This document shows, piece by piece, positions 4,116 through 49,804 of a DNA stretch of 64,000 nt (position 1 is its first letter; every line of letters begins with the position of its first letter). The DNA is from Spirochaetes bacterium GWE1_32_154 (lineage in GTDB: Bacteria > Spirochaetota > GWE2-31-10), in the NCBI GenBank assembly GCA_001829315.1, contig MIAY01000031.1, forward strand, positions 1 to 64,000, written 5' to 3'. A program made the position numbers and the translations under genes. The notes under the pieces are model-generated. The model ran no database searches, was not told the DNA's origin, and saw nothing but the letters and a program-made list of their open reading frames with translations.

Positions 4116-4233
4116 GAAGCTCTTGCAAAAATCAAGAGTACTTGATTTTGCTTCCGCAATATGCGATATTATCACATTAGAGGAAGCTTCTTGCAAAAAT
4201 TCGAGATAAAAAGAGTATTTTTGCAAGAAGCTC
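4116..4233. mobile_element. Palindromic MITE-like element, copy 1
   Basis: A 118-bp element beginning GAAGCTCTTGCAAAAAT and ending ATTTTTGCAAGAAGCTC, flanked by the 4-bp direct repeat TATT (4112-4115 and 4234-4237). It contains a left hairpin (ATCAAG-AGTA-CTTGAT), a central GCGATATTATC segment and a right hairpin whose arms are the TTCTTGCAAAAAT end and its complement. It fills the divergent intergenic region between the AlbA_2 regulator and thiF-like genes. The same sequence recurs at 48190-48308 in the same orientation and at 16527-16645 inverted. No coding capacity, so it would need a transposase in trans. Confidence 0.75.
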
Positions 4234-4314
4234 TATTGATTTAATATTATGTTCAAGAAACTTTAAATAAACGATCAAAATGACTCTATAATGAGACTCT
4301 CGCAGAAGGTTTTT

Positions 4315-5103
4315 ATGACACACACATTGAATGAACAACAAATGGAAAGATATTCACGACATCTTATTCTTAAAGAAGTTGAAGTTGAAGGACAATTAAA
4401 GTTATTAAACAGTAAAGTTCTTATAATTGGAACCGGCGGGCTTGGGTCACCGATTGCTCTTTATCTTGCAGCAGCCGGTATTGGCACTATCGGCATTGCT
4501 GACTTTGATACTGTTGATCTTTCAAACCTACAAAGGCAAGTTATACATTCAACTGAAAATATTGGAGTTGATAAAGTTCAATCAGCAAAAAATGAAATGA
4601 TTAAAATAAACCCGGACATAACCGTCAATGCTATGAAAACGTATGTTAATTCAGATAACATAATTGATATTATAAAAGACTATGATTTTATTGTGGATGC
4701 AACGGATAACTTTGCTAGTAAATTTTTAATTAACGATGCGTGCGTACTGAGTGGGAAACCATTCTCACATGGTGGAATATTGCGTTTTAACGGTCAGACA
4801 ATGACAATTAAACCTGGCGAAGCAGCATGTTACCGATGTGTATTTACAAAACCGCTTGAGAAAAACCTTAGTACAGCATGTTCTAAAGCCGGGGTTTTAG
4901 GAAGTGTTGCCGGGATGCTTGGAACAATCCAAGCCACTGAGGTTCTTAAATTTATCATTGGTAAAGGAGAATTGCTTACTAACAAGTTACTGACATTTAA
5001 CTCACTTACAATGGATTTCAGAAAAATCACCATAAAGAAAAACGACGATTGCCCCGTTTGTGGCAAACATCCAACGATAACCAAACCATTGGATGAAGAA
5101 TAA
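4315..5103 (+). CDS. E1-like adenylyltransferase (ThiF/MoeB/HesA family)
   Basis: A 262-residue E1-like enzyme that adenylates the C-terminal Gly of a ubiquitin-like sulfur carrier (ThiS or MoaD type). The nucleotide-binding loop GTGGLGSP, the YSRHLILKEV start, DFDTVDLSNLQRQ, the Asp in DATDNF, and two zinc CxxC pairs (CYRC and CPVC) are all present, as is STACSKAGVLG where the family has its active-site Cys. The ATG at 4315 has AGAAGG five bases upstream and is preferred over the in-frame ATG at 4291. No thiS, moaD, thiG, thiH or moeA is nearby, so thiamine versus molybdopterin use is undecided; the C-terminal rhodanese domain of some MoeB relatives is absent. Confidence 0.85.
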   Translation: MTHTLNEQQMERYSRHLILKEVEVEGQLKLLNSKVLIIGTGGLGSPIALYLAAAGIGTIGIADFDTVDLSNLQRQVIHSTENIGVDKVQSAKNEMIKINPDITVNAMKTYVNSDNIIDIIKDYDFIVDATDNFASKFLINDACVLSGKPFSHGGILRFNGQTMTIKPGEAACYRCVFTKPLEKNLSTACSKAGVLGSVAGMLGTIQATEVLKFIIGKGELLTNKLLTFNSLTMDFRKITIKKNDDCPVCGKHPTITKPLDEE

Positions 5104-5117
5104 ACCGAAATCATAGT

Positions 5118-5159
5118 CTCTTGCAAAAATACTATTTTTATCTTGAGTTTTTGCAAGAG
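5118..5159. repeat. Short single-hairpin copy of the palindromic repeat
   Basis: CTCTTGCAAAAA (5118-5129) and its exact complement TTTTTGCAAGAG (5148-5159) form a 12-bp stem. The loop ACTATTTTTATCTTGA resembles the terminal-hairpin half of the longer elements in this window. It lies between the convergent ends of the thiF-like gene and csrA, where it could also act as a two-way terminator. Confidence 0.75.
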
Positions 5160-5170
5160 GCACAGATTAT

Positions 5171-5401
5171 TTATTTTTTTCTCAGTAAATCACCAAGATT
5201 TTTAACAGCATCAGGATTAACCTTCGATGCTTCAATATTAGCATTTTGTATTTCTGTATAAATCTCTTTTCTGAAAACCTTAACATCATTTGGTGCATTA
5301 ATACCGATTTTTACATGATCGCCTTTTATGTTAACAATCGTAATTTCAATATTATCACCAATGACTATAGTTTCATTTTCTTTTCGTGCAAGTATAAGCA
5401 T
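5171..5401 (-). CDS. csrA: Carbon storage regulator / flagellin translational repressor
   Basis: A 76-residue RNA-binding CsrA, a homodimer that binds GGA-containing loops in mRNA leaders and blocks translation. The family pattern [15 protein letters not shown], then the [15 protein letters not shown] strands and [13 protein letters not shown] is complete; the C-terminal tail (after about 60) ends in Lys-Lys. The ATG shares one base with the fliW stop (TAATG) and has GGAGG upstream, so the two are translationally coupled. In Bacillus and Treponema FliW sequesters CsrA and flagellin titrates FliW, so this pair links filament assembly to flagellin synthesis. Last gene of the flagellar operon. 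Confidence 0.96.
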
Positions 5402-5835
5402 TATGCCTCCTTCTGTGACAGAAGAGGATGACGAACAGAATATTTGTCACTTAAACTTATAAGTTGTTTTGCCTGATGAGTAACTTTATTGATTACAATC
5501 GGACCAAGCAGGTTAACCGATGTTTTAGCAGGATTATCATTAAGCGTTACTATTGCAAAATTGATCATATCTTCATCGTTTTTTATTTCAAGCTTTTCAA
5601 GATCATGAGCATCAACATCAAGCTCGTAATCCTCTATAATCAACTTAGGATCTACTATTAGAAATGCTATTTCCGGTATTTTTTCAGCCTGCAACCAATA
5701 GAAAGGACTGCCTTCATCAAAATCAAGAAGCACAAAGTCATGAATATCTTCAAATCCAAGTAATCCGTCTTTTACTGTTATCTTCTGCTTTTCTGATATC
5801 TCAATCTCACCAAAAGCTTTCGTTACAATTTTCAT
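5401..5835 (-). CDS. fliW: Flagellar assembly factor FliW
   Basis: A 144-residue FliW, the antagonist of CsrA that also binds flagellin. It shows the family features [22 protein letters not shown], the acidic strand [17 protein letters not shown] and the NLLGPIVIN segment. The ATG at 5835 is chosen because GGAG lies six bases upstream; the TTG further out at 5847 would overlap that site. It directly precedes csrA and follows flgL by 27 bp, the same order as in Treponema. Confidence 0.95.
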
Positions 5836-5861
5836 TATACACTCCAAATAGTTATATCAAT

Positions 5862-7112
5862 TTATCGTAAAAAATCCATTAATGAGGACTTTGTAATTTT
5901 TGCAAGACTTGATAATGATGCTTTATGAGCAAAATCAAGAGTCGCTAATTCTGTCAGTGCATCAGCCATATTTACATCTTCAAGTGAGGAAAGCGTTTTA
6001 GTATAACTCATTTTATCATCACCCAATCGTTGCGTTAAATAATCAAGTCTATTTTGTAAAGCTCCGGTCTTTGCCATATTGTTTGTAAGATTTGTTATCG
6101 ACTCGTCAATTGCACCAAGAAATCTACCGCCAATATCCTCAGCGTTATTCTGGAGCATTGCATCACGCAAACCAATCATTGTGTCAAAAATACTTCCGCC
6201 GAATACATCAGCATCCTGACTGAAATTATCAGGTCCGATCGGGCGCCCCTGAGCTAATATACCAAGATTTTGAAGTAAATTACCACCTTCAATATCCGCT
6301 AACTCCACCTTATGAGGCGTTGTTGATTTAATAATCATTCCACCGGTTACTATATCAATTGAAGCATTCACCGCAGCAGGACTTCTATTTATTTTATCAA
6401 CAATAGCGTAGGCATTATCCCCTTCATTAAATGATATTTTCTGATTATCAATCATTACGCTCATATCATTTTCAAGACGAAAATCAGCAGTATTCACTTT
6501 TGAATATATTTGAAAATTCTCAGCCCAGAATAAATCACTTCCCGGAGGCGTAGATGCTGCATACTCATTAAAATCAATTTCCCGTAACTGTTTTCCATTA
6601 TCACCAAGATACCGCACTTCTGTAATCATAGCCGTATCAGCACCACGAACAGCACCTTCCAACACTTCAAAAGGTTTTGTAAACTTTTGAAAACCGCTAA
6701 AAAGGTAGTTTCCCTTGTATTTTGAATTTGCATCAACAATAATGTTTTTCATTAATTGATCAACTTCAACAGACATCGCTTTTCTATCTTCTGCCGTATA
6801 AATACCATTTGATCCCTGAACAGAAAGCTCCCGTACCCTTTGCAGAATTTCAATGGTACTGCCTATTTTGTTTTCAACCAGATTCCGTTCTGCACCAAGA
6901 TCATTTATATTTCTTTCCAACTGATCAATTTTAAATATTTTTGAATGAAATGTCATCGCCTGGGTCACATCAACAGGATTATCCCGCGGCATAACATATT
7001 TTTTACCGGTACTGATTGACTGATGAACTTTATTCATACTGTCTTCTTTTTTCATAACGAAATTCATTCCGTTATCATTTGCCATATTAGTACTTACTCT
7101 GTATATACTCAT
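5862..7112 (-). CDS. flgL: Flagellar hook-associated protein 3
   Basis: A 416-residue FlgL, the second hook-filament junction protein, exported by the flagellar type III apparatus and located in the periplasm if the cell is a spirochaete. The N-terminal coiled coil (MSIYRVSTNM, ISTGKKYVMPRDNPVDVTQ) and C-terminal coiled coil (LTELATLDFAHKASL) flank a variable middle of about 200 residues. It follows flgK by 15 bp and precedes fliW. Confidence 0.93.
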   Translation of the reverse strand: MSIYRVSTNMANDNGMNFVMKKEDSMNKVHQSISTGKKYVMPRDNPVDVTQAMTFHSKIFKIDQLERNINDLGAERNLVENKIGSTIEILQRVRELSVQGSNGIYTAEDRKAMSVEVDQLMKNIIVDANSKYKGNYLFSGFQKFTKPFEVLEGAVRGADTAMITEVRYLGDNGKQLREIDFNEYAASTPPGSDLFWAENFQIYSKVNTADFRLENDMSVMIDNQKISFNEGDNAYAIVDKINRSPAAVNASIDIVTGGMIIKSTTPHKVELADIEGGNLLQNLGILAQGRPIGPDNFSQDADVFGGSIFDTMIGLRDAMLQNNAEDIGGRFLGAIDESITNLTNNMAKTGALQNRLDYLTQRLGDDKMSYTKTLSSLEDVNMADALTELATLDFAHKASLSSLAKITKSSLMDFLR

Positions 7113-7127
7113 TTCACTACCCCTTTT

Positions 7128-9026
7128 TTATAGTTTTGTAATAATCGTTTCAAGCATCTTATCCATTTCACTGATAAATTTTGCCGATGCATTATATCCG
7201 TGCTGAAATTTAATAAGATTTGCAAATTCTTCATCAAGATTTACGCCTGAAACTGATTTACGGAGGTTTTCAAGGTTATTCATTATCGTTTCCTGAACTC
7301 TGAAACCATTTTCAGCTTTTTGTCCACGCGCCCCGACATCTGATACAATATTTTCAAAATATTGTGAAACACTTAAAGACATACCAACCATAACTTTGTT
7401 ATCTTTTAATGAAGATATTCGTAACGCATTCTGAGAATCTCCGATACCATTTGAAATATCTTTAATTCCATCACCATCTGAATCAATACCGCTGGCAACA
7501 GCAATAAATGACACATCATTTTCTATTTTTTTCTCTATAGCCATATATTGTGCCGGGTCAGTCAAAGGAGCTATCGACCACACTGATTGAGCATTTAATT
7601 TTGTACCTGTTTCATTTACAACATTACTATTAAAACCACCCTCAGCACCTGATTGATTTAATATTCCGGCATATCCCGTTAAAAAAAGGCCGTTATCTTC
7701 AAGTCTTCGTATAACAAAATCAGGGCTTTGATTATCACCATAATAATCTGCTTTAACCGTTAATTTCCCTTGAGGATTTAAAAATGCATTAACCCCGGCG
7801 CCGGATTCGTTGATTCTTCTAACAACTCTGTCTAATGTATCAGTTTCATAATAATCAATTTCGACATTGTTGACATTCATCGTTCCTCTGATACCAAGTT
7901 TATCATTTCCGTCAAGAGTATTAGCTCCGGTTACTTTGAATATAAAAGTTGAATCATCCGCACCGTCACGATTTGCATCAAAATTACCCGTCGGGTCAGT
8001 AGTAAACGGATGTGTTGAAAAAAAATCATTACCGGTTGTTTCATTTAACCCAAAACCATCTCTATGAATTTCATTAACAAGATCTGAAATATTCACTGCA
8101 AATGAATTGATTTTTTTCTGTTCCATTCGTAAATCAGTATCACGAACATCAACTAACGAACCAAGTTCTCCGCCTCTGAATGCAACTTTTTCCCCGTCAG
8201 CCCAATACACATCAGAGTAACCGTAATTATCCGCTTGTGCGGTGAGATTTAATTTTTCAGATTCCGCCCCCTGAACAATCATTTTACCACCGATATATAA
8301 TATCAGTTCATCAGGGTCTTCTCTTGAAATTTGTATGTCAGCCATTTTTGATAATTTATCAATAAATACATCCCGTGAATCATATAAATCATTCGGATGA
8401 TCTCCAACTGCTTCACTTTTTAAAATCCTTTCATTGAGTTTTGCAATTTTTGATGCTATTTCATTTAACTCGCCGACTTTATTTTTAATCTCAATGTCAA
8501 CATTATTTCGAATATCAGTCATTTGATTAAAATGATGTCGTACGCTATTAGTTAATATATTTGCTTTTTCAACCAGAACATTTCGCGGTGCTTTATCGTC
8601 AGGATTATTAGCAACATCCGACCATGAACTCATAAATTCATCAAATGCCCTGCGAAGCGTATTATACTGTGAAGGATCGTTATAAACACTCGGTTCTGCA
8701 TACACCATTTCCATCTGCTGCAAATATTTGTTTCTCATATCAAAAAAACCAAGATCTTTACCCGCAGAAATAATTCTATTATCAATAAACTGATCCCGTA
8801 CTCTGTCAATACTTGTAACGGTTGTTCCCTGACCTATTTGCCCTGCCGTTTCAGAACGTGCCAGACCCGGTACATACAATGGTTCAAAAGTACTTAATTT
8901 GACGGTTTGTCGTGAATAACCTTCTGTATTCATATTGTTTAAATTATGTCCGGTTGTATTTATTGCCTGCTGATGGCTTGCTAAAGACCGTTTTCCCATT
9001 TCTAACCCATGGAATGTTGAAATCAT
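7128..9026 (-). CDS. flgK: Flagellar hook-associated protein 1
   Basis: A 632-residue FlgK, the first hook-filament junction protein. The N-terminal flagellar rod/hook motif (ALxxHQQAINTTGHNLNN, with TEGYSRQTV) and the C-terminal FANLIKFQHGYNASAKFI are diagnostic; the long middle domain, with Asp/Asn-rich loops such as DSDGDGIKD, is the size seen in spirochaete FlgK. A GGAGG sits seven bases before the ATG at 9026. Second gene in the operon, 12 bp after the flgN-like gene. Confidence 0.94.
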   Translation of the reverse strand: MISTFHGLEMGKRSLASHQQAINTTGHNLNNMNTEGYSRQTVKLSTFEPLYVPGLARSETAGQIGQGTTVTSIDRVRDQFIDNRIISAGKDLGFFDMRNKYLQQMEMVYAEPSVYNDPSQYNTLRRAFDEFMSSWSDVANNPDDKAPRNVLVEKANILTNSVRHHFNQMTDIRNNVDIEIKNKVGELNEIASKIAKLNERILKSEAVGDHPNDLYDSRDVFIDKLSKMADIQISREDPDELILYIGGKMIVQGAESEKLNLTAQADNYGYSDVYWADGEKVAFRGGELGSLVDVRDTDLRMEQKKINSFAVNISDLVNEIHRDGFGLNETTGNDFFSTHPFTTDPTGNFDANRDGADDSTFIFKVTGANTLDGNDKLGIRGTMNVNNVEIDYYETDTLDRVVRRINESGAGVNAFLNPQGKLTVKADYYGDNQSPDFVIRRLEDNGLFLTGYAGILNQSGAEGGFNSNVVNETGTKLNAQSVWSIAPLTDPAQYMAIEKKIENDVSFIAVASGIDSDGDGIKDISNGIGDSQNALRISSLKDNKVMVGMSLSVSQYFENIVSDVGARGQKAENGFRVQETIMNNLENLRKSVSGVNLDEEFANLIKFQHGYNASAKFISEMDKMLETIITKL

Positions 9027-9038
9027 AAAGTCCTCCTT

Positions 9039-9491
9039 TTAAATCAGTTGATCGAACATAATTGGTCCGCTTCGTCCGATTGCTTCATTTTTTTTAGTAT
9101 GTACCGGTGAGTATGTTTCATCATCAAACGGTATTTTAAATATTTTATTTGCTTTTAATTTTGCAAGATATAAAGAATCTTTAAGCAGTCTGATGTTTAT
9201 CGTTTCCGCTTCTCTGTATTGTTTAATTAATTGTTTAATCCTGTTTTTCTGAATTGATATTTTCTGATCACTTATGGAATTACCACCAAGAGAAGCAATA
9301 GTGTGTTCTTCCTTTTCGAGATGAATTTTTAATTCATTCTGAGAACTTACGATTTCTGTAAGTTTTCCCCAATCACCTGAAATTATTGTATCTTTTTTCT
9401 CACTTGTTATATCATTCATTTTTTCAAATAAAGTAACAAGACTCTGATACGAAGCATTAATTGTAAAAAGCGTTGTGTTGTCCGGCACCAT
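9039..9491 (-). CDS. flgN: FlgN-like flagellar export chaperone
   Basis: A 150-residue, mostly helical protein at the head of the flgK-flgL operon, where FlgN (the export chaperone for FlgK and FlgL) is normally found. Sequence is compatible with the family: an N-terminal helix (TINASYQSLVTLFEKMNDIT), a heptad-like middle (ISIQKNRIKQLIKQYREAETINIRLL) and a disordered tail. FlgN is poorly conserved, so the call leans on size, coiled-coil character and position. AGGAG precedes the ATG at 9491. Confidence 0.75.
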   Translation of the reverse strand: MVPDNTTLFTINASYQSLVTLFEKMNDITSEKKDTIISGDWGKLTEIVSSQNELKIHLEKEEHTIASLGGNSISDQKISIQKNRIKQLIKQYREAETINIRLLKDSLYLAKLKANKIFKIPFDDETYSPVHTKKNEAIGRSGPIMFDQLI

Positions 9492-9693
9492 CCGTGGTCT
9501 CCTAACAAAAAAGTAGTTTAAAGGCTATAAAAGACCTTTGTATTTACTTCGGCTTTTTTCAAATTTACTTGATACAGAAATGATACTTTTTTTCAATAAA
9601 TAATACTTTTATTATTTTTCTGATATATACTATTAATAGGAGCAAATATCTGATTAAATATTTTTAAACCATTTTAATATATGAGGGGTTGTT

Positions 9694-10533
9694 ATGAAAC
9701 ATTTATTTTTTCTTCTTTTTATTTTAATTTCATTTTCTGTTTTTTCTGAAGATAAAGAAAAAGAAGTTATAGTAGTTCTTAATTTACGTAATGTTAATAT
9801 TGATAAAGAAATTGCTGATGCTATCACAGAAAATCTTATAACTGAAATCGTCAACATTAATGAGTATAATGTAATTGAAAGATCTCAATTAAATATGATT
9901 CTTGATGAGTTAAAAATCGGACAATCTGATGAATTTGACGAATCTTCTGCACTTCAGGTTGGTAAACTTGCAAGTGCTAAAATGGTAATATTAGGTAGTA
10001 TTTCAAAAATTGGCGAAACAATTGCTCTTAATATTAGAGGAATTGAAGTAGAAACAGGTAAAATAATATTTGCAAGAAATTTAAAAAGAACTCAAGAATC
10101 TGATTTATTTGATGCTACAAAAGAAATATCAATAGCACTAAAACCTCAAAAACAAAAAACTGAACTTACAACTGAAGAAATTAAAACTAAACAAAATCAA
10201 ATAAACAACATTAAATATGCCGGCATTGGTCTGTCAGTAACAGGTATTGCTATTTTTCTTGCCGGTACCGGAGTGCTTCTTTATGACATATTCGGTTATA
10301 TGCCAGTAGTTAGAGATGCCAGAGATAACGGGACTAATTACGAAGATTATGAATTAAAATACAACACAGCTATCGGTTTATTAGCAGGGAGTATTTCAGG
10401 AATATCACTTGGTATAATTATGGCAGGCTCATCAATACCGCTTATTGCGTATAAAGAAAAAGTTGTTCTTACTATGAATATACATACAAACTTTGAAACC
10501 GTAGTAGCCTTGAGTTTTAATATTAATTATTGA
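9694..10533 (+). CDS. Exported CsgG-like protein with two C-terminal membrane segments
   Basis: A 279-residue protein with a Sec signal (FFLLFILISFSVFS, cut before EDKEK), then a CsgG-like alpha/beta module (about 20-150: VIVVLNLRNVNIDKEIADAITENLITEIV, NEYNVIERSQLNMILDELK, LGSISKIGETIALNIRGIEVETGKI). This fold is common in spirochaete periplasmic proteins. Two hydrophobic segments follow (about 173-196 and 225-248), separated by a short loop. It lies 18 bp upstream of the ASH-repeat lipoprotein gene, so the two are probably one operon. The role is unknown; outer-membrane or envelope association is inference. Confidence 0.7.
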   Translation: MKHLFFLLFILISFSVFSEDKEKEVIVVLNLRNVNIDKEIADAITENLITEIVNINEYNVIERSQLNMILDELKIGQSDEFDESSALQVGKLASAKMVILGSISKIGETIALNIRGIEVETGKIIFARNLKRTQESDLFDATKEISIALKPQKQKTELTTEEIKTKQNQINNIKYAGIGLSVTGIAIFLAGTGVLLYDIFGYMPVVRDARDNGTNYEDYELKYNTAIGLLAGSISGISLGIIMAGSSIPLIAYKEKVVLTMNIHTNFETVVALSFNINY

Positions 10534-10551
10534 TGATCAAAGGGGATAAAA

Positions 10552-14511: not shown

Positions 14512-14527
14512 CATACAACTCTATACT

Positions 14528-14566
14528 GGTATCAGAAATTCTCAGTGAGACACAATTTCTGATACC
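14528..14566 (+). terminator. Rho-independent terminator of the ASH lipoprotein operon
   Basis: GGTATCAGAAATT (14528-14540) pairs perfectly with AATTTCTGATACC (14554-14566): a 13-bp stem and 13-nt loop followed by ATTATTTTTTCT. It starts 16 bases after the stop codon. The T-run lies on the plus strand, so it serves the lipoprotein gene. Confidence 0.9.
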
Positions 14567-14576
14567 ATTATTTTTT

Positions 14577-16466
14577 CTATTGAAAATCGCGTAGTGATTC
14601 ATCGATGCCTTTTAACATTTCAAACCAGAAATTTAAACCGGCTTCATTTTTGTCTTTTTCAAACTCGGCTATCCATTTTTCAAGACCCGGCGTTGTATCA
14701 TTTTCCACTTCAGATTTCCGTTTTAAAAATGTATACACAAAGTCAAAATCTCTTTCCGATTCCCAGACAATTGATGCGTTTCTTGAATTTATACGGCTTG
14801 CAAGCACGGATATACTTGATAGATATGCATCTTTCATGCCATACAGAGACTCCATCACTTCAGGAACCATATCTTCAGCCCATCCCCTGTGAAACCGGCA
14901 AACCCCTAAGTTATCAAGAATTAATTCTTTTTTTAACCTTTCGGCGCATTTTCGCCCCAACTCACGAGGCTCAATAAAATCTGTTCCATAATACATATAA
15001 TATTTACCCATAATTGCCATAGGAGCTAAAACACCGGGCGTCCAATACTGATTGGGAACCATCCATCCTTTTCGGCCATGAGCTATATATACAAGCCGGT
15101 CTATTATTTTTATACCGGTATTTTTATGAACTTTTCGTGCCCACTTTCTAACACCTTGTGATATATCAACGATTCCTTTTTTATTAATCATTGCATCAAT
15201 AAGTTCAAGACCTAACAAAGCATTATTTTCAGAGTCTTTTAGTATGTCAAAACCTTCCATATCAAATTTAGGCATTCGTGTAACACCAAGATCTTCTTTT
15301 GTTAACTCACCTTCAGCCAAAAGTTCCATAAACCATGCAAGAACACCTCCACAACTTATAGCGTCAAAACCCATTGCATCAGCATAATGATTTAACGTCT
15401 CTGCTGCTCTTTGATCAAAAATACCACAAAGAGGCCCCATAGCCTGATATGGCTCAAAATCTTTTTTAAACTCATTATTCATCTTTTTACAAACAGCAGA
15501 ACATGGTTCACCACAAGTAGCCTGTTGTTTTGGTTTTATAGTTTCTTCATTGAACTGTTTAAGATAATGATCTATTACTAGATTTTTATGAAGTGTTTCT
15601 CTTTCACCTTCAGTTTGATATATCGTCTTATAATTAAAAGCTATTATTTTACCGTTTACTGTTGAATAATTCACCCCGAATGTACCGCCGGTATTAAATT
15701 TGGGGTCAAACCTGTATTTGGTTGTACTGTCAAAATCTTTTGCAATCAGTTTCTGATTATATTTATTTTCAAACCATTCATCAGCAACTTTTCTATCCCG
15801 GAAATCTTCATCAACAAAAGTTCCCCCGTAAATAATAGCAACTATCCCATGATCCTGCACCATTTTTGAACCCAATCCGCCTCTGCCGGCCCATGTATCT
15901 ACAAATGACATTTTTTTATTTGTAATAGGCACTGAACATATCCCGCCAAAATCAGTACTCATTGCAGCCGGTCCTGTTGCGAGAATTCGCGGGTCATTTT
16001 CATATTTATCGCCAAACTTTTCATAGGTATAATCCATCAGTGCATATACACCTTTTCTCCCGCTTGCCCATATAGCATTTATATCTACCGGGACAACACT
16101 CACCTCTATTTCTTCACCATGAACACGGTTTAAATAAAGAATTGAAGGAACCGGAGCTTTTCTAATAAGACTTATCATATTAACACCGAGGTTATCAAAA
16201 ACGAGCCCTGCCCCACCCATACTTGATACATAAAAACCACGCCACGATGGAGAAAAGCCCGAAAAAAACAATCTGTTTGAACCTGGGAAAATTGAACCGG
16301 CAAGTAACCCGACACCTATATTTAGAGTATTATAATTATCTGAAATATGAATACCAAGATCAATCGGACCAAAATAATCTCCGACTTTATATCTTCGTAC
16401 TTTGTAAAATTCTGTTAATCCGTCAATAAATAAAACTTTTTGAGTTGCGTCCATTGAGCCATCCAT
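14577..16466 (-). CDS. Aldehyde ferredoxin oxidoreductase family (tungstopterin enzyme)
   Basis: A 629-residue member of the AOR family, whose enzymes oxidise aldehydes or related substrates with a tungsten (or molybdenum) bis-pterin and a 4Fe-4S cluster, passing electrons to ferredoxin. N-terminal domain features include GLLAGSIFPGSNR and GGAGLVFDNLGVN; the cluster Cys set is CGEPCSAVC (near 318-326) and CGG near 374, with another Cys in LGVCRFHRGW (near 524). The first three Cys are spaced x3-x3 rather than the x2-x3 of the Pyrococcus enzyme. The start is uncertain: ATG at 16466 lacks a clear ribosome site, and ATG at 16454 has GGATGG nearby. Signals an anaerobic lifestyle. No partner ferredoxin gene adjoins. 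Confidence 0.88.
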   Translation of the reverse strand: MDGSMDATQKVLFIDGLTEFYKVRRYKVGDYFGPIDLGIHISDNYNTLNIGVGLLAGSIFPGSNRLFFSGFSPSWRGFYVSSMGGAGLVFDNLGVNMISLIRKAPVPSILYLNRVHGEEIEVSVVPVDINAIWASGRKGVYALMDYTYEKFGDKYENDPRILATGPAAMSTDFGGICSVPITNKKMSFVDTWAGRGGLGSKMVQDHGIVAIIYGGTFVDEDFRDRKVADEWFENKYNQKLIAKDFDSTTKYRFDPKFNTGGTFGVNYSTVNGKIIAFNYKTIYQTEGERETLHKNLVIDHYLKQFNEETIKPKQQATCGEPCSAVCKKMNNEFKKDFEPYQAMGPLCGIFDQRAAETLNHYADAMGFDAISCGGVLAWFMELLAEGELTKEDLGVTRMPKFDMEGFDILKDSENNALLGLELIDAMINKKGIVDISQGVRKWARKVHKNTGIKIIDRLVYIAHGRKGWMVPNQYWTPGVLAPMAIMGKYYMYYGTDFIEPRELGRKCAERLKKELILDNLGVCRFHRGWAEDMVPEVMESLYGMKDAYLSSISVLASRINSRNASIVWESERDFDFVYTFLKRKSEVENDTTPGLEKWIAEFEKDKNEAGLNFWFEMLKGIDESLRDFQ

Positions 16467-16526
16467 AATTGAGTAATTTAGATAATAAGAGATATAACAG
16501 GTACTTTATGAATATGTCTTTTGTTT

Positions 16527-16645
16527 GAGCTTCTTGCAAAAATACTCTTTTTATCTCGAATTTTTGCAAGAAGCTACCTCTAACGCAATTATATTGCGTA
16601 TTGCCGTAAGCAAAATCAAGTACTCTTGATTTTTGCAAGAGGCTC
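16527..16645. mobile_element. Palindromic MITE-like element, copy 2 (inverted)
   Basis: A 119-bp element starting GAGCTTCTTGCAAAAAT and ending ATTTTTGCAAGAGGCTC, flanked by the exact 4-bp duplication GTTT (16523-16526 and 16646-16649). Relative to the copies at 4116 and 48190 it is inverted: the TCTCGAA hairpin is first, then a central hairpin GCAATTATATTGC, then the AATCAAG-TACT-CTTGATT hairpin. It sits 61 bp upstream of the aldehyde oxidoreductase start. Confidence 0.8.
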
Positions 16646-16793
16646 GTTTTATTGTATTTTCTGAAAGTATAAGTAAAATAGACCGGTTAGTCAAGTTGTT
16701 AATTAAAAGGTGTATTGTGAAGGATATTTTTGAAAAAAAACAGGTTTACTTCCTTTCATTTGTGAACATGAAAAATTTTTCATTACATTAATA

Positions 16794-17064: not shown

Positions 17065-17078
17065 ATAGATTTTTCCTA

Positions 17079-17739: not shown

Positions 17740-17760
17740 GAGACTCTTGCAAAAATAGTT
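17740..17760. repeat. Half copy of the palindromic repeat (end only)
   Basis: GAGACTCTTGCAAAAATAGTT matches the inverted end of the palindromic elements (GAGCTTCTTGCAAAAAT) but has no matching right arm within 130 bp; TTTTTGCAATGAA immediately after may be a degraded one. Confidence 0.5.
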
Positions 17761-17763
17761 TTT

Positions 17764-17898
17764 GCAATGAATTTTGTGGATAAAGCCTTAAATTTTGATA
17801 AAATTATTTTAAACAAAAAAAGGCAAATATTCATGAAAAGTATAGCTGATTTATTGGACGATAAGCAAGAACTTTTTGAATTTTATGAAGAATATTGA
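17764..17898 (+). CDS. Small acidic ORF or gene remnant in the repeat zone
   Basis: From the ATG at 17764 a 44-residue frame encodes a lysine-rich start and an acidic end, IADLLDDKQELFEFYEEY. The part after the internal Met (17833) looks protein-like, but no ribosome site is clear and the frame begins within a half copy of the palindromic repeat. It could be the surviving tail of a larger lost gene. I do not recognise a family. Confidence 0.25.
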   Translation, partial: AMNFVDKALNFDKIILNKKRQIFMKSIADLLDDKQELFEFYEEY

Positions 17899-18110
17899 AA
17901 CTCTTGCAAAAATACTTTATTTTCTCTCGATTTTTTGCATGAGACTACTCCCGGTGGCATATCTAAGGCAGCTACGTTTTTTTGTACTCTAAAATATCGC
18001 GAATCAGTAACCAAGGGAACTGTAATCAGTAACCCACTACGATTTTTGGCACTCCAAAATATTGCGTAACGCAGTTTCATAGCGTGTGGCGGAAGAAAAA
18101 AAACATCTAA
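17897..18110. repeat. Degenerate long copy of the palindromic repeat
   Basis: Begins GAAACTCTTGCAAAAATACT, with the TCTCGA hairpin and the arm TTTTTTGCATGAGAC ending at 17945, then a tail with words shared with the 18171-18328 copy (CTGTAATCAG, GTGGCGGA against ATGGCGGA). Two related words, ACTCTAAAATATCGCG and ACTCCAAAATATTGCG, occur about 70 bp apart within the tail. No intact right end was found. Confidence 0.5.
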
Positions 18111-18170
18111 TCTGATGCATCAAAAGATTAGCATTTGCAAATAATTAAAGTTTACAAAATAAAGTAAGTG

Positions 18171-18328
18171 GAGCCTCTTGCAAAAATACTCTTTTTATCT
18201 CGAATTTTTGCATGAGGCTTCCCTGGTTGCATGCAAGAGCAGCTGTAATCAGCGACCAGGGTATAATCCGATTTTATCGCATATGGCGGACGAAAAAAGA
18301 ATGTACTCATTATTTTTGCAAGAGCCTC
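18171..18328. mobile_element. Palindromic MITE-like element, copy 3 (158 bp, expanded centre)
   Basis: Starts GAGCCTCTTGCAAAAATACT and ends ATTATTTTTGCAAGAGCCTC, with exact 4-bp flanking duplications AGTG (18167-18170 and 18329-18332). The first hairpin (TACTCTTTTTATCTCGAA inside TTGCAAAAA arms) equals that of copy 2; the centre is longer and carries CCCTGGT...ACCAGGG and TATCGCATATGGCGGA, the latter resembling the complement of TCCGCCATATGCGATA in the 48190 copy. Confidence 0.75.
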
Positions 18329-18594
18329 AGTGATATAATTTATGTTGCATAAATCAATTTTTTTTTGTATGAATTCATTAATTTGAATGAAAATAAGCTA
18401 TGACAAGTAGTTATTGCAGGCACCTTAAATTACGATATGGGAGAAGATTATAATGACTCCACTTTTTCTAATGATTTTCTATAACCCATTTTACATGAAT
18501 CTTTTTTACGTACCTAATCTGTAGCTAAAGAAAATAAAAGGATTAAAAAATAACTGAGAACAACAAAATAAGCGTGCATGTGCTCAATATTTGA

Positions 18595-37904: not shown

Positions 37905-37938
37905 TCTACACCTTCTTATTTCCCTATAAAATAAAGGT

Positions 37939-39012: not shown

Positions 39013-39022
39013 TATTGCCTCC

Positions 39023-39877: not shown

Positions 39878-39898
39878 ATCATCCTCCCATAAAATACA

Positions 39899-40405: not shown

Positions 40406-40421
40406 AAAAACCTCCTGATTA

Positions 40422-42470: not shown

Positions 42471-42472
42471 TT

Positions 42473-42781
42473 TCAAACCCTCGCCAGACGGGATATATCA
42501 AGACCGACAATAGAAGAAATTCTTGATAATTCACTGCATTTTTCCAGCTCCATAAATGACATTGAAATATTCTTATGATTGCATTGTTTATTTAAGCAAA
42601 ATATAAACTGTAAAAAACAAAGATCATATTTGGTAACATCACGAAGATCAAATTGTATACCTTTAATCTCTAATTGTTGTACTGCTTCAATTTTCTCAAT
42701 AACTTCGGCAATACATTCAATTGTTGCAGATTTTGATATTTTTACAATAACACCATCATTAATATTAATAACTTCTACCAT
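42473..42781 (-). CDS. STAS-domain protein
   Basis: A 102-residue soluble protein that fits a STAS (anti-sigma antagonist-like) domain: beta strands at the start (VIVKISKSATIECI), a helix, GIQFDLRDVTKYDLCFLQFI in the position of the usual IxLDLxxVxxxDSSGL, and a C-terminal helix. The canonical Ser/Thr phosphorylation context is not clear (DLCFLQ replaces DSSG), so partner switching may not need phosphorylation. First gene of the cheA operon, with its stop overlapping the cheA ribosome site region; such STAS proteins accompany CheA in several spirochaete-like clusters. Confidence 0.7.
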   Translation of the reverse strand: MVEVININDGVIVKISKSATIECIAEVIEKIEAVQQLEIKGIQFDLRDVTKYDLCFLQFIFCLNKQCNHKNISMSFMELEKCSELSRISSIVGLDISRLARV

Positions 42782-42809
42782 CGTATACCTTCCTTAATTT
42801 CTCACTTTC

Positions 42810-44417
42810 TTAATATTTTTCAAAATCATTAATATCACTGTCTTCTTTTGCCAATTCGATATGAACACCACTTGAATGTATATTATGATGAATATCAGTT
42901 CGTCCGTCGGTGATATGTTTGGAATTTTTTTTACCATTGCTATCAGGTAGATGCGTTGGCAAAAGAAAATGAGTTGAATGGCTTCCATTTTTACTATCAT
43001 GAATAACTGTTTTCTTTCTATCAGTGAAGTTATTGCGACTTGAGGCAACTTTATCACTTCCATATTTCAATGTGTTTATTGCAGACTGCATTTGAATAGA
43101 CTGTGCTGCAAGCTCCTCGGCTGTTGCAGCAAGCTCTTCTGCATTAGCGGCATTTTGCTGAACCACCGAATTGAGTTGCATAACAGCAGTATTTATCTGT
43201 TGAATACCATTTGCCTGTTCACCGCTTGCTGCATTTATTTCAGCAACAAGTTCTGATGTTTTTTCTATATCCGGTACAAGACTCGATAGCATAGTACCCG
43301 CATCAACAGCAATTTCAACGCTCTCTTTTGACAACTTACCGATTTCGACAGCAGACTGCTGACTTCTTTCTGCAAGTTTCTGTACTTCACTGGCAACAAC
43401 TGCAAAACCCCTTCCATGTTCCCCGGCACGGGCAGCTTCAATGGAAGCATTAAGAGAAAGTAAGTTCGTCTGTCTGGCTATTTCCTGAATTATTGATACT
43501 TTTTCAGCAATTTCTTCCATTGCTTTAACCGTTTTGCCAACAGCAACACCGCAAACTTTTGCATCATTGGCACTTTTTTCGGCTATCTTTTCTGTCTGGC
43601 TTGCATTATCAGAATTCTGTCTGATAGTTGCCGTCATTTGTTCAATAGAGGAGGAAACCTCTTCAACATTTGCAGCCTGTTCTGACGCCCCCTGAGAAAG
43701 CTCTTCAGAAGAAGAAGATATTTGTTCTGTTCCAACACTTACCTGATTTGATGAACTGTCAACAGAATCGACAACTTTAATGATTGACCTGATTAATAGA
43801 AATGATATAACAAATGCAAGGAGAATACCCGCACCAATTATTGTTATCATTAACACAGTTGAAAAATTTGCTGTTTTCGTGTTTTCATCAGCGATAATTT
43901 TACCTTTATTTAAACTGTACGCATATAAAGTATCAATTTCATTATTAACAATATTTTTAATGGTTGTAAAATCACCATTCATTAATATAAGAGCTTCATC
44001 CATTCTTTTTTCTTTAATAAGTGTAATGAATTTTGACACCGTTTCTTTATATATAACAGCTTCCTTAATTAATACTGAAAACATTTCCTTTTCTTCTGCA
44101 CTGCTTATAGTTTTCTCGTACACAGCTGCATCTTCATCCATTTTAGTTAACAGCATATTAATTTCATTTACATGTGCATTTATTCTCTCAGGGTTCTCAT
44201 AATTTATAAAAGCTAATAAATAATTTGCCCTGACACGGTGAAAATAAGCTGAAATATGGCCAATTTCACCAAGAGGTATCAAACCTTTTTCATATAATGC
44301 AGTATCCGCAGTATCAATTTTTCTAATCTGAATAATACCAAAAATACCGATTACGACAGAAACCAATATTACAGCACAAAAACTTATTACAATTTTCATC
44401 CCGATTCCTATTTTCAT
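42810..44417 (-). CDS. Methyl-accepting chemotaxis protein with four-helix-bundle sensor
   Basis: A 535-residue receptor from the ATG at 44417 (AAGGAGG six bases upstream). TM1 about 5-28, a 4HB_MCP-like periplasmic helical bundle (about 35-185, [20 protein letters not shown]), TM2 about 186-210, then directly a long signalling hairpin with tip [20 protein letters not shown] and Glu/Gln methylation-type regions ([20 protein letters not shown]). The tail ends in an Asp/His-rich disordered stretch rather than a CheR-tether pentapeptide. It heads the STAS-cheA operon, so it is a likely direct input to that CheA. Confidence 0.93.
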
Positions 44418-44567
44418 AAAAAGCCTCCTTTTCATTTACTTGATAAAGCAGAAGGTGTGCCGTAAATAAGATTATTTGAAAAAATTGTTAATGATGGGGT
44501 TTATTCTTTATGAATATTTTTTAAATATTGATTTTATACATAATATTGTATTTATAGTTTATGTGAC

Positions 44568-44586
44568 ATGTAAAATATTTTTACAT
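44568..44586. repeat. Palindrome upstream of the four-helix-bundle receptor
   Basis: ATGTAAAA-TAT-TTTTACAT, a perfect 8-bp inverted repeat in the 192-bp gap between the NtrC-type gene end and the receptor start. It could terminate the NtrC transcript or bind a regulator of the receptor operon; nothing else supports either. Confidence 0.3.
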
Positions 44587-44609
44587 TTCTATCAAATATG
44601 TATATTTTT

Positions 44610-46010
44610 TTACCTGGATTTAAGTTTATTATTTAAAGTCTGTCTTGTAATACCAAGCAATACAGCAGCCAATGACTGGTTATTTCCGGTTTTCTGAAGG
44701 GCTTTTTCAATCATCACTTTTTCAACTTCCGATAACGATGGAAAATGGTATTCATCATGTATTGTAAAAACCGTCCCTGTTTTTGACTGTTCTACGGGTA
44801 TTTCTTTCATATAATTTTCATTCAGTTTTAGTTTAAAAGAATCCAGTGAAAGTATATTATTTTCATTAATACTCACAGCATCATGAATAATTGCCTCCAA
44901 CTCTCTTATATTCCCCGGAAAACCATAACATGAGAGTAACGTAATTAATTCTTTCGGATACCCGGGTATTTTTCTTCCCTGTAATAGTGCAGAATTACTT
45001 ACAAAATGTTCAACAAGAGCCCGAATATCTTCTTTTCTTTCACGTAATGGTGGTATAGAAATATGATGAGTACATAAACGATAATACAGGTCTTTTCTAA
45101 ATTCACCGTTGGATTGAGCTTCATTCAGATTTTTGTTTGTTGCAACAATAATTCTTACATTTGCCTGCATTGGTAGATCTGAACCCAATTGAAAATATTC
45201 ATTTGACTGTAAAAGACGTAAAAGCTTAACCTGGGACTGCATTGATAAATCACCGATTTCATCAAGAAAAAGTGTCCCGTTTTCAGCCTCTTTAATTAAT
45301 CCCGATCTGGAATTTTCCGCATTCGTAAATGCCCCTTTTTTATGACCGAAAAGCGTATCAGTAAACATTGCATCATCAAGACCTGCAATATTAACGGTAA
45401 TTAATTTTCCCTCTCTTTTACTCGCCTTATAAATTGCCTGTGCAAAAAGCTCTTTACCTACACCGGTTTCTCCGGTAATAAGAATTGGCTGACTTGAACA
45501 GGCTATTGATTCAATGTATTTAAAAAATGAAATCATTTTCTTATTTGTTGTTATAATTTCTGAAAAATATTCGGGATGCTTTAATTCTTCGGTAAGCATA
45601 TTATCTTTTAAGCTTTTATTTTCATTAAGTAACTCATTAATCTTTGTTATATAATGAATGGTTGCCAGTAATTTTTCTTTTTCAACCGGTTTAATCAAAA
45701 AGTCACTTGCACCATTTTTCATACAACGAACAGCTGTGTTTATATCGTTATTACTTGTTATAATAACAACCGGTATTTCAGGATGTGAATCGGCCAGTTC
45801 TTTCAGTAGCACTTCTCCGTTTTTAGCCGGCATATAAAGATCAAGAAGTATAAGACTTATTGTATTTTCGTCAAGAATTGAATGAATCTCCATCGGATTA
45901 TTACATGATAGTATTTTTTTATACCCTGCAGAACGCAGAACTAATGATAAACTGTCTGTTATCAGACAATCATCATCGACAATTAATATCATGCTATTCT
46001 TTTGATCCAC
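44610..46010 (-). CDS. NtrC-family sigma-54-dependent response regulator
   Basis: About 466 residues. Start taken as GTG at 46010, with GAGGAGG six bases upstream; it overlaps the upstream kinase gene by 17 bp. Receiver (about 5-125, VDDDCLI, phospho-Asp in LILLDLYMPAKNG), AAA+ sigma-54 activator domain (about 145-380; Walker A GETGVGKELFAQ, the loop reading GAFTNA, FLDEIGDLS Walker B), and a Fis-type HTH at the end (NQSLAAVLLGITRQTLNNKL). The sigma-54 contact loop is GAFTNA rather than GAFTGA, a variant also seen in other activators. It is the output partner of the PAS kinase. Confidence 0.94.
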   Translation of the reverse strand: MDQKNSMILIVDDDCLITDSLSLVLRSAGYKKILSCNNPMEIHSILDENTISLILLDLYMPAKNGEVLLKELADSHPEIPVVIITSNNDINTAVRCMKNGASDFLIKPVEKEKLLATIHYITKINELLNENKSLKDNMLTEELKHPEYFSEIITTNKKMISFFKYIESIACSSQPILITGETGVGKELFAQAIYKASKREGKLITVNIAGLDDAMFTDTLFGHKKGAFTNAENSRSGLIKEAENGTLFLDEIGDLSMQSQVKLLRLLQSNEYFQLGSDLPMQANVRIIVATNKNLNEAQSNGEFRKDLYYRLCTHHISIPPLRERKEDIRALVEHFVSNSALLQGRKIPGYPKELITLLSCYGFPGNIRELEAIIHDAVSINENNILSLDSFKLKLNENYMKEIPVEQSKTGTVFTIHDEYHFPSLSEVEKVMIEKALQKTGNNQSLAAVLLGITRQTLNNKLKSR

Positions 46011-48105
46011 GATTAACCTCCTCACAATGTAAAGGAAAACTTACCGTAACAGTAGTTCCTTCACCCAAAACCGATTTATACTCAAGTGTACCTTTATACG
46101 TCTGAATAATATTTCTTGAAACATAAATACCCAATCCGGAACCGCCGGTATTTTTCTTTGTTGTATTAAATGGAATAGTCAGTTTCTTTAATGCACTTTC
46201 ATCCATTCCACACCCGTTATCCTGAATTCGAACAAAAATTGAACCGTTTTCATTATATCCTGTAGATATACAAATTGTACCTGATTCGTCTGAAAGAGCC
46301 TGATATGCATTTTGTATAAGATTAATAAGAACCTGTTCTATTCTCTTAAAATTACAATTTATCAATAATTTTGAATCAGATAAACGAAGATCAATTATTT
46401 CAGTATACGATTTCACTATCGAAGATAGAAGTTCAATTGATGACAAAACAATCATATTTAAATCGGAATACTCATTACACGCAAATTGATCGTTTCTAAT
46501 ATATAACTTTAATTCATCAATAATATGTTTTATATTATACGAACTTTTTAATATATTACCATACATACCTTCAATACTTTCTTTTACTTCATTATAACTC
46601 AAACCTGCTATATAAAAATCACCATTATTTACATAATATTCTTCAAGTATCGGGCGAACATTGCCCCATATTTCTGATAGAATTTCAATATTCGTCATGA
46701 TATATTGATTGGGATTATTAATTTCATGTGCAATCCCCGATGCAAGAAGCCCGATAGAACTCATTTTATCAATTTGGATTAAATTCTCTTCCATTAGCTT
46801 ATTTTTTTCATCATTAAGTTTTTTTTCAGTAATGTCATTACAAACATACATAAAGCCGATCACTTTGTCATTATGAATAACATTACTTACTGTCATTAAT
46901 ACATTAATTGTATTGCCTGACAGTGTAATCTGTCTGACATCACCTTTCCATATATTGTCTTTTGAAATACTCAATTCAATATCAGGAAATAAATTTTTCT
47001 TAAATCCATGACTATCAGAAAACAATTTAAATATTTCAGTTCCAATAATTTCAACAGCTTTCCATCCGTATATTTTTTCAGCGGCTTTATTCCAGCTTTT
47101 TATAGTGTGCTGACAATCGGTAGATATAACTGCATCCGATATATTTTCAAGAACTAAAGCGGTATAAATAAGTTTTTCTTCAAATTCTTTATTTTGAGTA
47201 ATATCCTTAATTAATCCATCATACCCTGACATTAGTCCATTTAAGTCATACCGTATAACTATTGTATTCAAAATCCACTTTAAACTTCCATTTTTATGAT
47301 AATTTCTATGCTCAAGTGGTTCTGTTTTTATTCCCTTCTGAGCATTTTCTGCCATTTGTTTTACAGTATCCCGATCATTTTCATGAACCATATTGATCCA
47401 TAAATACGTATCAATAGAAATTTCTTCTTTTGTATACCCTGTAATTATATAACACTGGTCGGTATGTATCGTTTGTATTGTTTTTCCATTTTCAACCTTA
47501 ACACTATACATATAATCTGTAATCTCGTTAGTAATATTTTGAAACCGTTTATTTGATTCTTTAATACGGTTAAGTGTAGTTTTGTATTCATTTTCCCGTG
47601 CTATTTTTTTTTCCAACTCTTTTCTTTTTGTAATATCACGTGATACTCCAAATAATGCCACTAATTTATGAGAAGAATCAAGGATAAATGATGTTGATAT
47701 TTCAACCCATTTATATGACCCGTCTTTGCATAACTGTTCTATTTCGTCGAATTTAGTCTTTTGCGTTTCATCGCCAGCAAAAAAGCTAATAATTCGTTCA
47801 TTGATAGTTTCAGTAATCGATGAATAATAACTGGGGGAAATTGTTTCAAATAATGACTGATTCATTGCCTCTTCAACAGTATAGCCGGTCAAATATCGAA
47901 CGGATGGAGTGATAAAAGTGAATTTCAATGTTTTTGAATCAATAATCCAAAAAACATCACGGGTGTTTTCTGTAATTATATTAAATTTATCTAAAATATC
48001 TCTGTATTGATCAAAACCATCAAAACCATGTTCACTTTGATACGCTTTAACAATAAAATTTAAATCTTTGTGAATATGAATTGTATTTTGTTCGTCATAT
48101 TTCAT
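45994..48105 (-). CDS. Soluble PAS-domain sensor histidine kinase
   Basis: A 703-residue cytosolic kinase with no TM segment. Three PAS modules: about 30-155 (RDVFWIIDSKTLKF, then YKWVEISTSFILD with a PAC end), 190-310 and 315-430 (SWNKAAEKIYGW). Then a HisKA-like helix with His in LASGIAHEINNPNQ and HATPase (VLINLIQNAYQAL, DNGCGMD, GGSGLGIYVS). PAS modules suggest an internal redox, oxygen or small-molecule signal. GGGTG precedes the ATG. Its end overlaps the NtrC-type regulator, a cognate pair. Confidence 0.93.
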   Translation of the reverse strand: MKYDEQNTIHIHKDLNFIVKAYQSEHGFDGFDQYRDILDKFNIITENTRDVFWIIDSKTLKFTFITPSVRYLTGYTVEEAMNQSLFETISPSYYSSITETINERIISFFAGDETQKTKFDEIEQLCKDGSYKWVEISTSFILDSSHKLVALFGVSRDITKRKELEKKIARENEYKTTLNRIKESNKRFQNITNEITDYMYSVKVENGKTIQTIHTDQCYIITGYTKEEISIDTYLWINMVHENDRDTVKQMAENAQKGIKTEPLEHRNYHKNGSLKWILNTIVIRYDLNGLMSGYDGLIKDITQNKEFEEKLIYTALVLENISDAVISTDCQHTIKSWNKAAEKIYGWKAVEIIGTEIFKLFSDSHGFKKNLFPDIELSISKDNIWKGDVRQITLSGNTINVLMTVSNVIHNDKVIGFMYVCNDITEKKLNDEKNKLMEENLIQIDKMSSIGLLASGIAHEINNPNQYIMTNIEILSEIWGNVRPILEEYYVNNGDFYIAGLSYNEVKESIEGMYGNILKSSYNIKHIIDELKLYIRNDQFACNEYSDLNMIVLSSIELLSSIVKSYTEIIDLRLSDSKLLINCNFKRIEQVLINLIQNAYQALSDESGTICISTGYNENGSIFVRIQDNGCGMDESALKKLTIPFNTTKKNTGGSGLGIYVSRNIIQTYKGTLEYKSVLGEGTTVTVSFPLHCEEVNRGSKE

Positions 48106-48189
48106 ACATTAACACCCTATTTTACACCAAATTATAAATAGGAAATCAAAAAAAGTCAATAGAGCCTCAATAATATTTTAAATATTACA

Positions 48190-48308
48190 GAGGTTCTTGC
48201 AAAAATCATGAGTACATTATTTTTGCTTCCGCCATATGCGATATAATCGCATTATAGGTAGCTTCATGCAAAAATTCGAGATAAATAAGGGATTTTTGCA
48301 AGAAGCTC
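48190..48308. mobile_element. Palindromic MITE-like element, copy 4
   Basis: A 119-bp element from GAGGTTCTTGCAAAAATCATG to ATTTTTGCAAGAAGCTC. Centre: TTCCGCC then the perfect hairpin ATGCGAT-ATA-ATCGCAT. Same orientation and order as the copy at 4116. Flanks TACA and TATT agree at only two of four positions, so its target duplication has decayed or is absent. The right end lies two bases from the stop codon of the following minus-strand gene. Confidence 0.7.
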
Positions 48309-48310
48309 TA

Positions 48311-49720
48311 TTATTTAGAATATGTAGTAAACATTAGTGACGTTTCTGCATTTTTAATGACTTTAGTTTCTTTGGGCTTTAATCCCCTTGTATTAACCAG
48401 AATTTTTTCAGGCGTTCCGCCATTAATGACATAATACCCTGATTCACTATCAAATATGGCATCAGGAATGCTGTCAATTAAATCTTTCGTCGATGCAATT
48501 GCCTGAAGTGATTCAACACCAAATGGTGAGGACACCTGAAATTTTCCTAAACTGATCCATTTATTGACATCATCATCATTAACAAAAACAATAAATTTAC
48601 GATTGTTTTTTGCCTCATTAAGTTCAAGTAAATATGAAAATTCTTTGGCATTATGCAAAACATATCCTGCAAAATATATAAAACCAGACCGGTTTACCTT
48701 CGCAAGTAATTCAATTTCTTCGCCTTCAATAAATAAAAGATTTGTTTTCCCTTTGTTTGTTGTCAGTTCAATTTTCATATCAGAAGATGACACTGCATTA
48801 TTTAATAACGATGACATTGCTACATGTTCAGGTTTATATGCTACATTAATATACGATGCAGGAAGAAAACGGGTGATCCTGCTTTTAATTATATTATTTT
48901 CTTTATCGAATAACTGTGAAACCATGTGTATTCCATCATTCAAAATATCATAATTACTTCTTAAATAATATTTTGCATCTGAATACAATTGATGGTCTGA
49001 CATTTTCAAAGATAGGTAATCATTTAACATTTTACTGAATTGCGTTACTTCATTGGAATTCGCAGGCGTTGCAGGATAAATAAAAACACCTTTATATTCT
49101 TTAAAATCCTCTGCTATCAACAAAGCACCTTTTTCAATTGAATCACAATTATTCTGATACCCGCTAATCATTGTTAAGACATCTGATTTTGTGAGGCTCA
49201 TATCAGGAATTTCGGAAATAGCAAGATATACCGAAACCAGACGGTATTTTTGATATGAAGTGACTAAAGTCATCAGTTCATTGAGTAACTTCAATTTAAT
49301 ATCATTTGTAGATTTTTCTATATTTTTAAGTAGACTTTCAACTTCGACCCCGATTTCTTTTAATTTCTCTTTATATAGAACAATTGACTTGTCCGTATCA
49401 AATGATGCTTTTGCTGAAAAAGGATATTCTTTTGTTTTATTCTTCGTAATTTGAAATGTAGCACCCATAATTGGTAAATCTGTTTTTACATTCACATCAC
49501 TTTTAACATATTCTGAATACGTATTTTTTGTATCATGATTAACTTGTTCTGCGACACGACTGATTTCTGTTTTTACATTCGACTCGATTAATCCGGCAAG
49601 ATCTTTTAATGCGTTCGCTTTTGCCTCATCCTGAGTAACTCCGAAACCAATACCTTCTAGTTGTATGGAATACATAGCTAATGTTACTACTAACAAAAGC
49701 ATAACAAATGTATACTTCAT
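48311..49720 (-). CDS. Exported LPP20/DUF4384-like periplasmic protein
   Basis: About 469 residues from the ATG at 49720 (AAGGAG upstream; the frame to 49771 is discarded). Signal peptide MKYTFVMLLLVVTLAMYS, then an LPP20-like alpha/beta region (GFGVTQDEAKANALKDLAGLIES, KTEYPFSAKASFDTDKS), a helical stretch, and a DUF4384-like beta part (RSGFIYFAGYVLHNAKEFSYLL). These domains are common in spirochaete envelope proteins. The C-terminus and stop abut the repeat element at 48190. Function unknown. Confidence 0.7.
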   Translation of the reverse strand: MKYTFVMLLLVVTLAMYSIQLEGIGFGVTQDEAKANALKDLAGLIESNVKTEISRVAEQVNHDTKNTYSEYVKSDVNVKTDLPIMGATFQITKNKTKEYPFSAKASFDTDKSIVLYKEKLKEIGVEVESLLKNIEKSTNDIKLKLLNELMTLVTSYQKYRLVSVYLAISEIPDMSLTKSDVLTMISGYQNNCDSIEKGALLIAEDFKEYKGVFIYPATPANSNEVTQFSKMLNDYLSLKMSDHQLYSDAKYYLRSNYDILNDGIHMVSQLFDKENNIIKSRITRFLPASYINVAYKPEHVAMSSLLNNAVSSSDMKIELTTNKGKTNLLFIEGEEIELLAKVNRSGFIYFAGYVLHNAKEFSYLLELNEAKNNRKFIVFVNDDDVNKWISLGKFQVSSPFGVESLQAIASTKDLIDSIPDAIFDSESGYYVINGGTPEKILVNTRGLKPKETKVIKNAETSLMFTTYSK

Positions 49721-49793
49721 ATTTTCTCCTTGCTGATATTGTACACTATTTGATCTCAAAAAGAAACTCAATGTAATTTATTTTCATTCATTT

Positions 49794-49804
49794 GCAAGAG
49801 CCTC
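49794..49804. repeat. Isolated end sequence of the palindromic repeat
   Basis: GCAAGAGCCTC is identical to the right end of the 18171-18328 element but stands alone just upstream of the second aminotransferase gene; no left arm is visible within 200 bp. Confidence 0.35.

Follow-up and report, generated by a model that had tools for sequence, protein, structure and literature searches.

Palindromic MITEs with IS1182-like ends and independently mobile solo hairpins in a spirochaete genome

Four full-length copies of a palindromic element were found in the window, i.e., the whole 64-kb stretch of DNA that was analyzed, and their coordinates and lengths were exactly those of the original prediction. 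The first copy (4116..4233, − strand, 118 bp, model score 139 bits), with its H1 hairpin on the right side, was intergenic between the divergent neighbors 2611-4095(−) and 4291-5103(+) and was flanked by the 4-bp target site duplication (TSD) TATT at 4112-4115 and 4234-4237. The second copy (16527..16645, + strand, 119 bp) was flanked by GTTT at 16523-16526 and 16646-16649 and was located upstream of gene 14577-16466(−). This gene was aldehyde ferredoxin oxidoreductase (AFOR)-like according to Pfam AFOR_N/AFOR_C, and its NCBIfam GAPOR score was well under the cut-off. The third copy (18171..18328, + strand, 158 bp) carried an additional CCTGG..CCAGG hairpin module, with AGTG duplicated at 18167-18170 and 18329-18332. 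The fourth copy (48190..48308, − strand, 119 bp) was positioned between the tandem genes 45994-48105(−) and 48311-49771(−) and had no TSD (TACA/TATT); the synteny around 48190 was not kept in the relatives compared, which belonged to other genera. The exact duplications claimed for three of the four copies were thus verified.

In the case of the shorter copies, the picture was partly different from that predicted. The hairpin reported at 5118-5159 was present, and its true extent was 5114..5163 (+ strand), corresponding to a 50-bp solo hairpin of the H1 type directly 3' of the ThiF-family gene 4291-5103, with no detectable TSD (ATCA/AGAT). The supposed half copy at 17740-17760 was actually part of a degraded insertion sequence (IS) of the IS1182 family, the left end of which (17740..17896, + strand) comprised the terminal repeat GAGACTCTTGCAAAAAT, a subterminal hairpin, a leader, and the first 21 codons of a transposase gene (MKSIADLLDDKQELFEFYEEY; 17833..17895, + strand), while the remainder of the IS beyond 17896 was gone. 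Accordingly, the statement that the window lacks a transposase holds only in that no more than this stub is present. Immediately adjoining the IS relic, 17897..18110 (+ strand) did belong to the family, not as a short or half copy but as a decayed long one with the left terminal repeat GAAACTCTTGCAAAAAT, an H1 hairpin, additional hairpin modules, and no recognizable right end, and it was probably inserted into the relic. The last predicted short copy (49794..49804, + strand) was at best a weak candidate for an 11-bp end fragment (GCAAGAGCCTC).

The family was defined by the terminal repeat GAGCYTCTTGCAAAAAT at both outer ends and occurred in three forms, namely, solo hairpins of 45-51 bp, elements of 118-120 bp, and elements of 138-212 bp with added hairpin modules. 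A solo hairpin consisted of the terminal repeat, a loop of 12-16 bp, and the terminal repeat again, and the standalone solos came with either the H1 loop or the H3 loop. The 118-120 bp elements were ordered as H1 hairpin, central hairpin, and H3 hairpin. H1 was composed of GAGCYTCWTGCAAAAAT, a 16-base loop, and the complementary arm; the central hairpin had the alleles ATGCGAT..ATCGCAT or ACGCAAT..ATTGCGT; and H3 was of the ATCAAGTACTCTTGAT type, terminating in ATTTTTGCAAGAGCCTC. Among the longer forms, a 20-base AAAAAAAGTACYCTTTTTTT hairpin gave 138-139 bp, a CCWGG..CCAGG hairpin gave 157-158 bp, both together gave 180-182 bp, and further hairpins gave 185-212 bp. The accessory modules, seen in the long elements L047, L049, L050, L067, and L202 and in window 17897-18110, resembled one another at the apex, which was G-TAYY-C or G-TAAT-C (for example, AAGTACTCTT and CGGTACCCCG); this may reflect one origin or one selected loop. 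By the textbook definition, MITEs are non-coding, approximately 50-500 bp long, and bounded by terminal inverted repeats. The elements found here were 45-212 bp long (the 45-49 bp solos being slightly under that range), had no coding capacity, and showed terminal repeats at both ends, TSDs, and ends common to an autonomous partner.

The 12-mer TCTTGCAAAAAT occurred 326 times in the 4.03-Mb genome (43 contigs), while its reversed control did not occur. The elements were delimited twice, by their ends and, independently, by a covariance model built on 39 copies. At least 150 model matches, including partial and solo copies, were obtained in the window's genome, and 45, 11, and 1 were obtained in the Spirochaetales MAG Zod_Metabat.749 (G060), G061, and G001, respectively. 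As the model gave no match in seven related genomes (G002-G008), the insertions look lineage-specific. TSDs were surveyed in 1.23 Mb of stretches from the window's genome, most of them picked around known copies, and densities were not extrapolated. An exact 4-bp TSD was found in 43 of the 61 full copies in this sample, the limits of which were set by the covariance model and not by the flanks; another 8 retained three of the four bases, none had a 5-base repeat, and approximately 30% had no exact TSD. When the right 4-mer was slid by 1-10 bases, at most 2 of the 61 copies matched, and the chance of a 4-mer repeat at random positions was 0.8%. The target sites were AT-rich, with TATA as the most frequent duplication. 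The majority of copies therefore kept an exact TSD, and the transposition with 4-bp duplications proposed in the original prediction was supported genome-wide.

On the basis of shared ends, shared TSD length, and the transposase relic, the MITEs are assigned to a parent family, IS1182, with whose ISUnCu17-like insertion sequences they have their ends in common. Such IS were found on Aeromonas caviae plasmid pKAM643_2, pMLUA3, Comamonas pBHB, and Acinetobacter plasmids, and they resemble the MITEs in the terminal repeat GAGSYTCTTGCAAAA and the exact 4-bp TSD; they differ in being autonomous and 1.4-1.5 kb long, whereas the window's elements are non-coding and 45-212 bp long. The Aeromonas ISUnCu17 had the end GAGCCTCTTGCAAAAGG and the TSD ATGA, pMLUA3 had the TSD TCCT, and Comamonas pBHB had the end GAGGCTCTTGCAGAA and the TSD TGGT. 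The end pairs of the IS1182-annotated plasmid elements were GAGCCTCTTGCAAAAGG / GAGCTTCTTGCAAAACT or GAGGCTCTTGCAGAA / GAGGCTCTTGCGAAA. Within the same phylum, a 1.48-kb autonomous IS located at L171:641-2121 (G359) had GAGGCTCTTGCAAAAT ends and the TSD TATG.

In G008, a genome of the same order, three contigs are broken within a nearly identical IS left end, which reads GAGCCTCTTGCAAAAAT.. and continues with ATG AAG AGT ATA GCA GAT. This left end matched the window's genome at two places only, C40:1091-1226 (78%) and window 17740-17869 (73%). The relic on contig C40 reads MKSIADLLGDKRELFEFYEEYLKY.., which is matched by the 21-codon stub in the window; it is frameshifted and ends after HISRDST, and the sequence next to it looks like IS21. 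Its 72-aa fragment matched Pfam DUF772 at E 1e-7, and its protein was 45% identical to ISUnCu17 over 76 aa, the closest plasmid matches (45.8%) being annotated as IS1182 / ISUnCu17 transposases. The DUF772 domain and the HISRDST motif were kept and the C-terminal half was lost, and the NCBIfam NF033551 score of 15.5 (cut-off 270) was that of the 72-aa fragment. As only broken remnants of this transposase were detected, with no other DUF772 or ISUnCu17-like gene found in the genome assembly, current mobility is doubtful. In addition, when terminal repeats 0.8-5 kb apart were paired across 847 kb, no pair had an exact TSD, and thus no autonomous copy is present in those 847 kb. Contig C40 (L203; 224-796 and 1655-2390) holds, in order, a phage-type integrase/recombinase-like ORF, the IS1182 relic, and a seemingly broken IS21-like element, and under this reading of the labels it would be a small graveyard of mobile elements. 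The C36 (L071) transposase, ORF 1408-2343 (−), was rejected as the driver because its ends were unrelated to the MITE family; it was the only PF01609 match in the genome, present in a single copy and open over 311 aa, and it looks IS982-like.

From the shared ends and the TSDs, we infer with high confidence that the MITEs were mobilized in trans by an IS1182-family transposase of the ISUnCu17-like subgroup, so that a driver can be named for a previously unassigned high-copy repeat. By analogy with the family, the DDE transposase would bind both GAG.. ends, excise the element, and join it to a 4-base staggered cut. Mobilization in trans had been expected in the original prediction, and it has now gained a parent IS family, although an intact transposase of the ISUnCu17 type was not found in the assembly. 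As the transposase remnants are truncated, this strain would now hold a stranded or almost stranded family.

The 45-51 bp solo hairpins moved independently. An exact 4-bp TSD was found at 13 of 25 standalone solos and at 0 of 10 identical hairpin units lying beside a central module in longer copies, which indicates that the solos transposed on their own. Thus, elements that are little more than two back-to-back transposase-binding ends still leave ordinary target duplications, and they may be the minimal mobile unit. A comparable arrangement was observed in Zod_Metabat.749, where a long element with another interior ends in a hairpin that also stands alone as a 51-bp element with the TSDs ATAT, GTTA, and AATT. 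TSDs were present at 8 of 10 long elements and 3 of 5 solos in that genome, and families with the same ends and different interiors were found in Zod_Metabat.749 and G001.

The outer and inner ends differed in their first base. Among 39 aligned elements, G was the first base of the outer repeat in 35 on the left and 36 on the right, while at the inner H1 end G was found in only 1 (T in 29 and A in 9). Likewise, in the printed sequences of Zod_Metabat.749, the internal hairpin has A (once C) rather than G as the first base of its inner end. This pattern suggests that the transposase requires the terminal G and that, once this base is lost, the hairpin can no longer leave alone; in the longer elements, the H1 inner end would be inactivated in this manner, leaving the outer ends in use. 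The retention of G at outer ends and its loss at inner ends would then be a natural mutagenesis showing the essential base of an IS1182-type end.

Deletion is the usual route to a shorter MITE, and the solo hairpins may accordingly be internal-deletion derivatives of longer elements instead of the founding unit. We regard this as quite possible, albeit at somewhat less than an even chance, since each solo type has a loop in common with the long elements, either that of their H1 unit (H1-type solos) or that of H3 (H3-type solos). However, most solos have a terminal G, either at both ends (11/25) or at one, whereas the H1 inner end of long elements is T or A (38/39); thus, deletion alone would not suffice, and the end would have to be restored as well. 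As a tentative alternative, to which we give clearly less than even odds, the solo palindromes were the founding mobile units, and longer elements arose as two solos around a cargo hairpin, stabilized when the inner end was inactivated by losing its terminal G; this would have taken place independently in two or more lineages. The folded form would be what the transposase, or replication passing through the hairpin, acts on, and hairpin pairing would have persisted for this reason.

The stems showed marked covariation. In the proposed structure, 95.8% of cells were paired compared with 90.4% in shuffles; changes on both sides were seen in 10 of 32 pairs, and 78 double-change cells were counted against 27.3 in shuffles (0/500), a count that is not a probability because the aligned copies are kin. 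Sliding the structure, a control which preserves kinship, lowered pairing to 37-47%, but the structure was drawn from one copy, which favors the proposed one. Folding was strong (z −7.8 for RNA and −9.1 for DNA). The H1, central-hairpin, and H3 variants were found in nearly every combination, which suggests that they were exchanged between copies or changed recurrently. Stem pairing therefore appears to be maintained somehow, with selection for folding and palindrome-wide templated correction as candidate causes, and the covarying, shuffled modules offer a testable case of palindrome evolution within a genome between these two.

Covariation far above that of shuffles and strong folds would also be expected if the hairpins were retained for a function as signals in RNA or DNA, i.e., as terminators, mRNA stabilizers, or protein-binding sites, with their spread being secondary. 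This explanation is very improbable, as no terminator- or promoter-like placement and no Rfam match was found, and one stem pair was broken (T.T) in 11 of 39 copies. Gene context was called by an ORF heuristic (89% coding), by which 59 of 70 classifiable copies lay between ORFs and the 11 overlaps were mostly at ORF ends. The intergenic copies (n = 59) were tandem in 35, divergent in 19, and convergent in 5 cases, against 61%, 29%, and 11% of intergenic bases, respectively. Placement was thus proportional to intergenic length, which fits random insertion and the purging of gene hits rather than a regulatory role.

Single-strand Y1 transposition makes no TSD. Despite their short hairpins, extragenic placement, and compensatory changes, it is thus extremely improbable that the elements are of the REP/REPIN type, with a REP-associated tyrosine (Y1) transposase as their driver, considering the exact 4-bp TSDs at both ends, terminal repeats matching IS1182-family ends, and a genome search for Y1_Tnp (PF01797) that gave no match when five control genomes were positive. 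REPINs and BIMEs are similar in having short covarying hairpins, with compensatory stem changes reported for REPINs, in single and composite extragenic forms (PMC3116915), but they rely on a Y1 transposase, the gene for which is absent from the window's genome, and leave no TSD.

IS1182-partnered MITEs are already known; mobile solo hairpins, dead inner ends, and covarying shuffled stems go beyond an ordinary MITE. In Methanosarcina acetivorans, MITEs ascribed to ISMac2 (IS1182) have a length of 160 bp, an IR of 26 bp, and a DR of 4 bp (PMC3852290, Table 4). They number 14 and 7 copies against at least 150 matches here, and, compared by description only, solo hairpins or hairpin modules are not described in the passage on them (PMC3852290). 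IS1272, which is placed in the IS1182 family, is reported to target and replace stem-loops without a TSD (PMC5678879). Hairpins are central to its transposition, as here, but TSDs are absent there and the rule here; therefore, the IS1182 family is mechanistically mixed. Stem-loop replacement of the IS1272 type was ruled out as the main mode by the TSDs in 70% of full copies. High-copy, length-variable, hairpin-forming MITEs include QMITE1 and QMITE2 of Coxiella and Chunjie of Geobacter, with QMITE1 copies reported down to 39 bp (review PMC10969869). According to that review, shortened QMITE2 copies have lost their terminal repeats and duplications (PMC10969869), whereas the 45-51 bp units found here retain both. 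In a literature search, with subscription papers and ISfinder outside its range, no publication was found that describes MITEs bearing such ends.

Hits in Blautia, Bacteroidales, viral, and other contigs were rejected as relatives, as they had only the hairpin core in common and no GAG ends. The contigs of Blautia sp. RGIG5147 (L072-L129, e.g., L083:890-921) carry a recurrent palindrome of a different family (CTCATGCAAAAATGAGCGAGCTCATTTTTGCATGA), which is often situated no farther than approximately 200 bases from the end of a contig, as though the repeat breaks the assembly.
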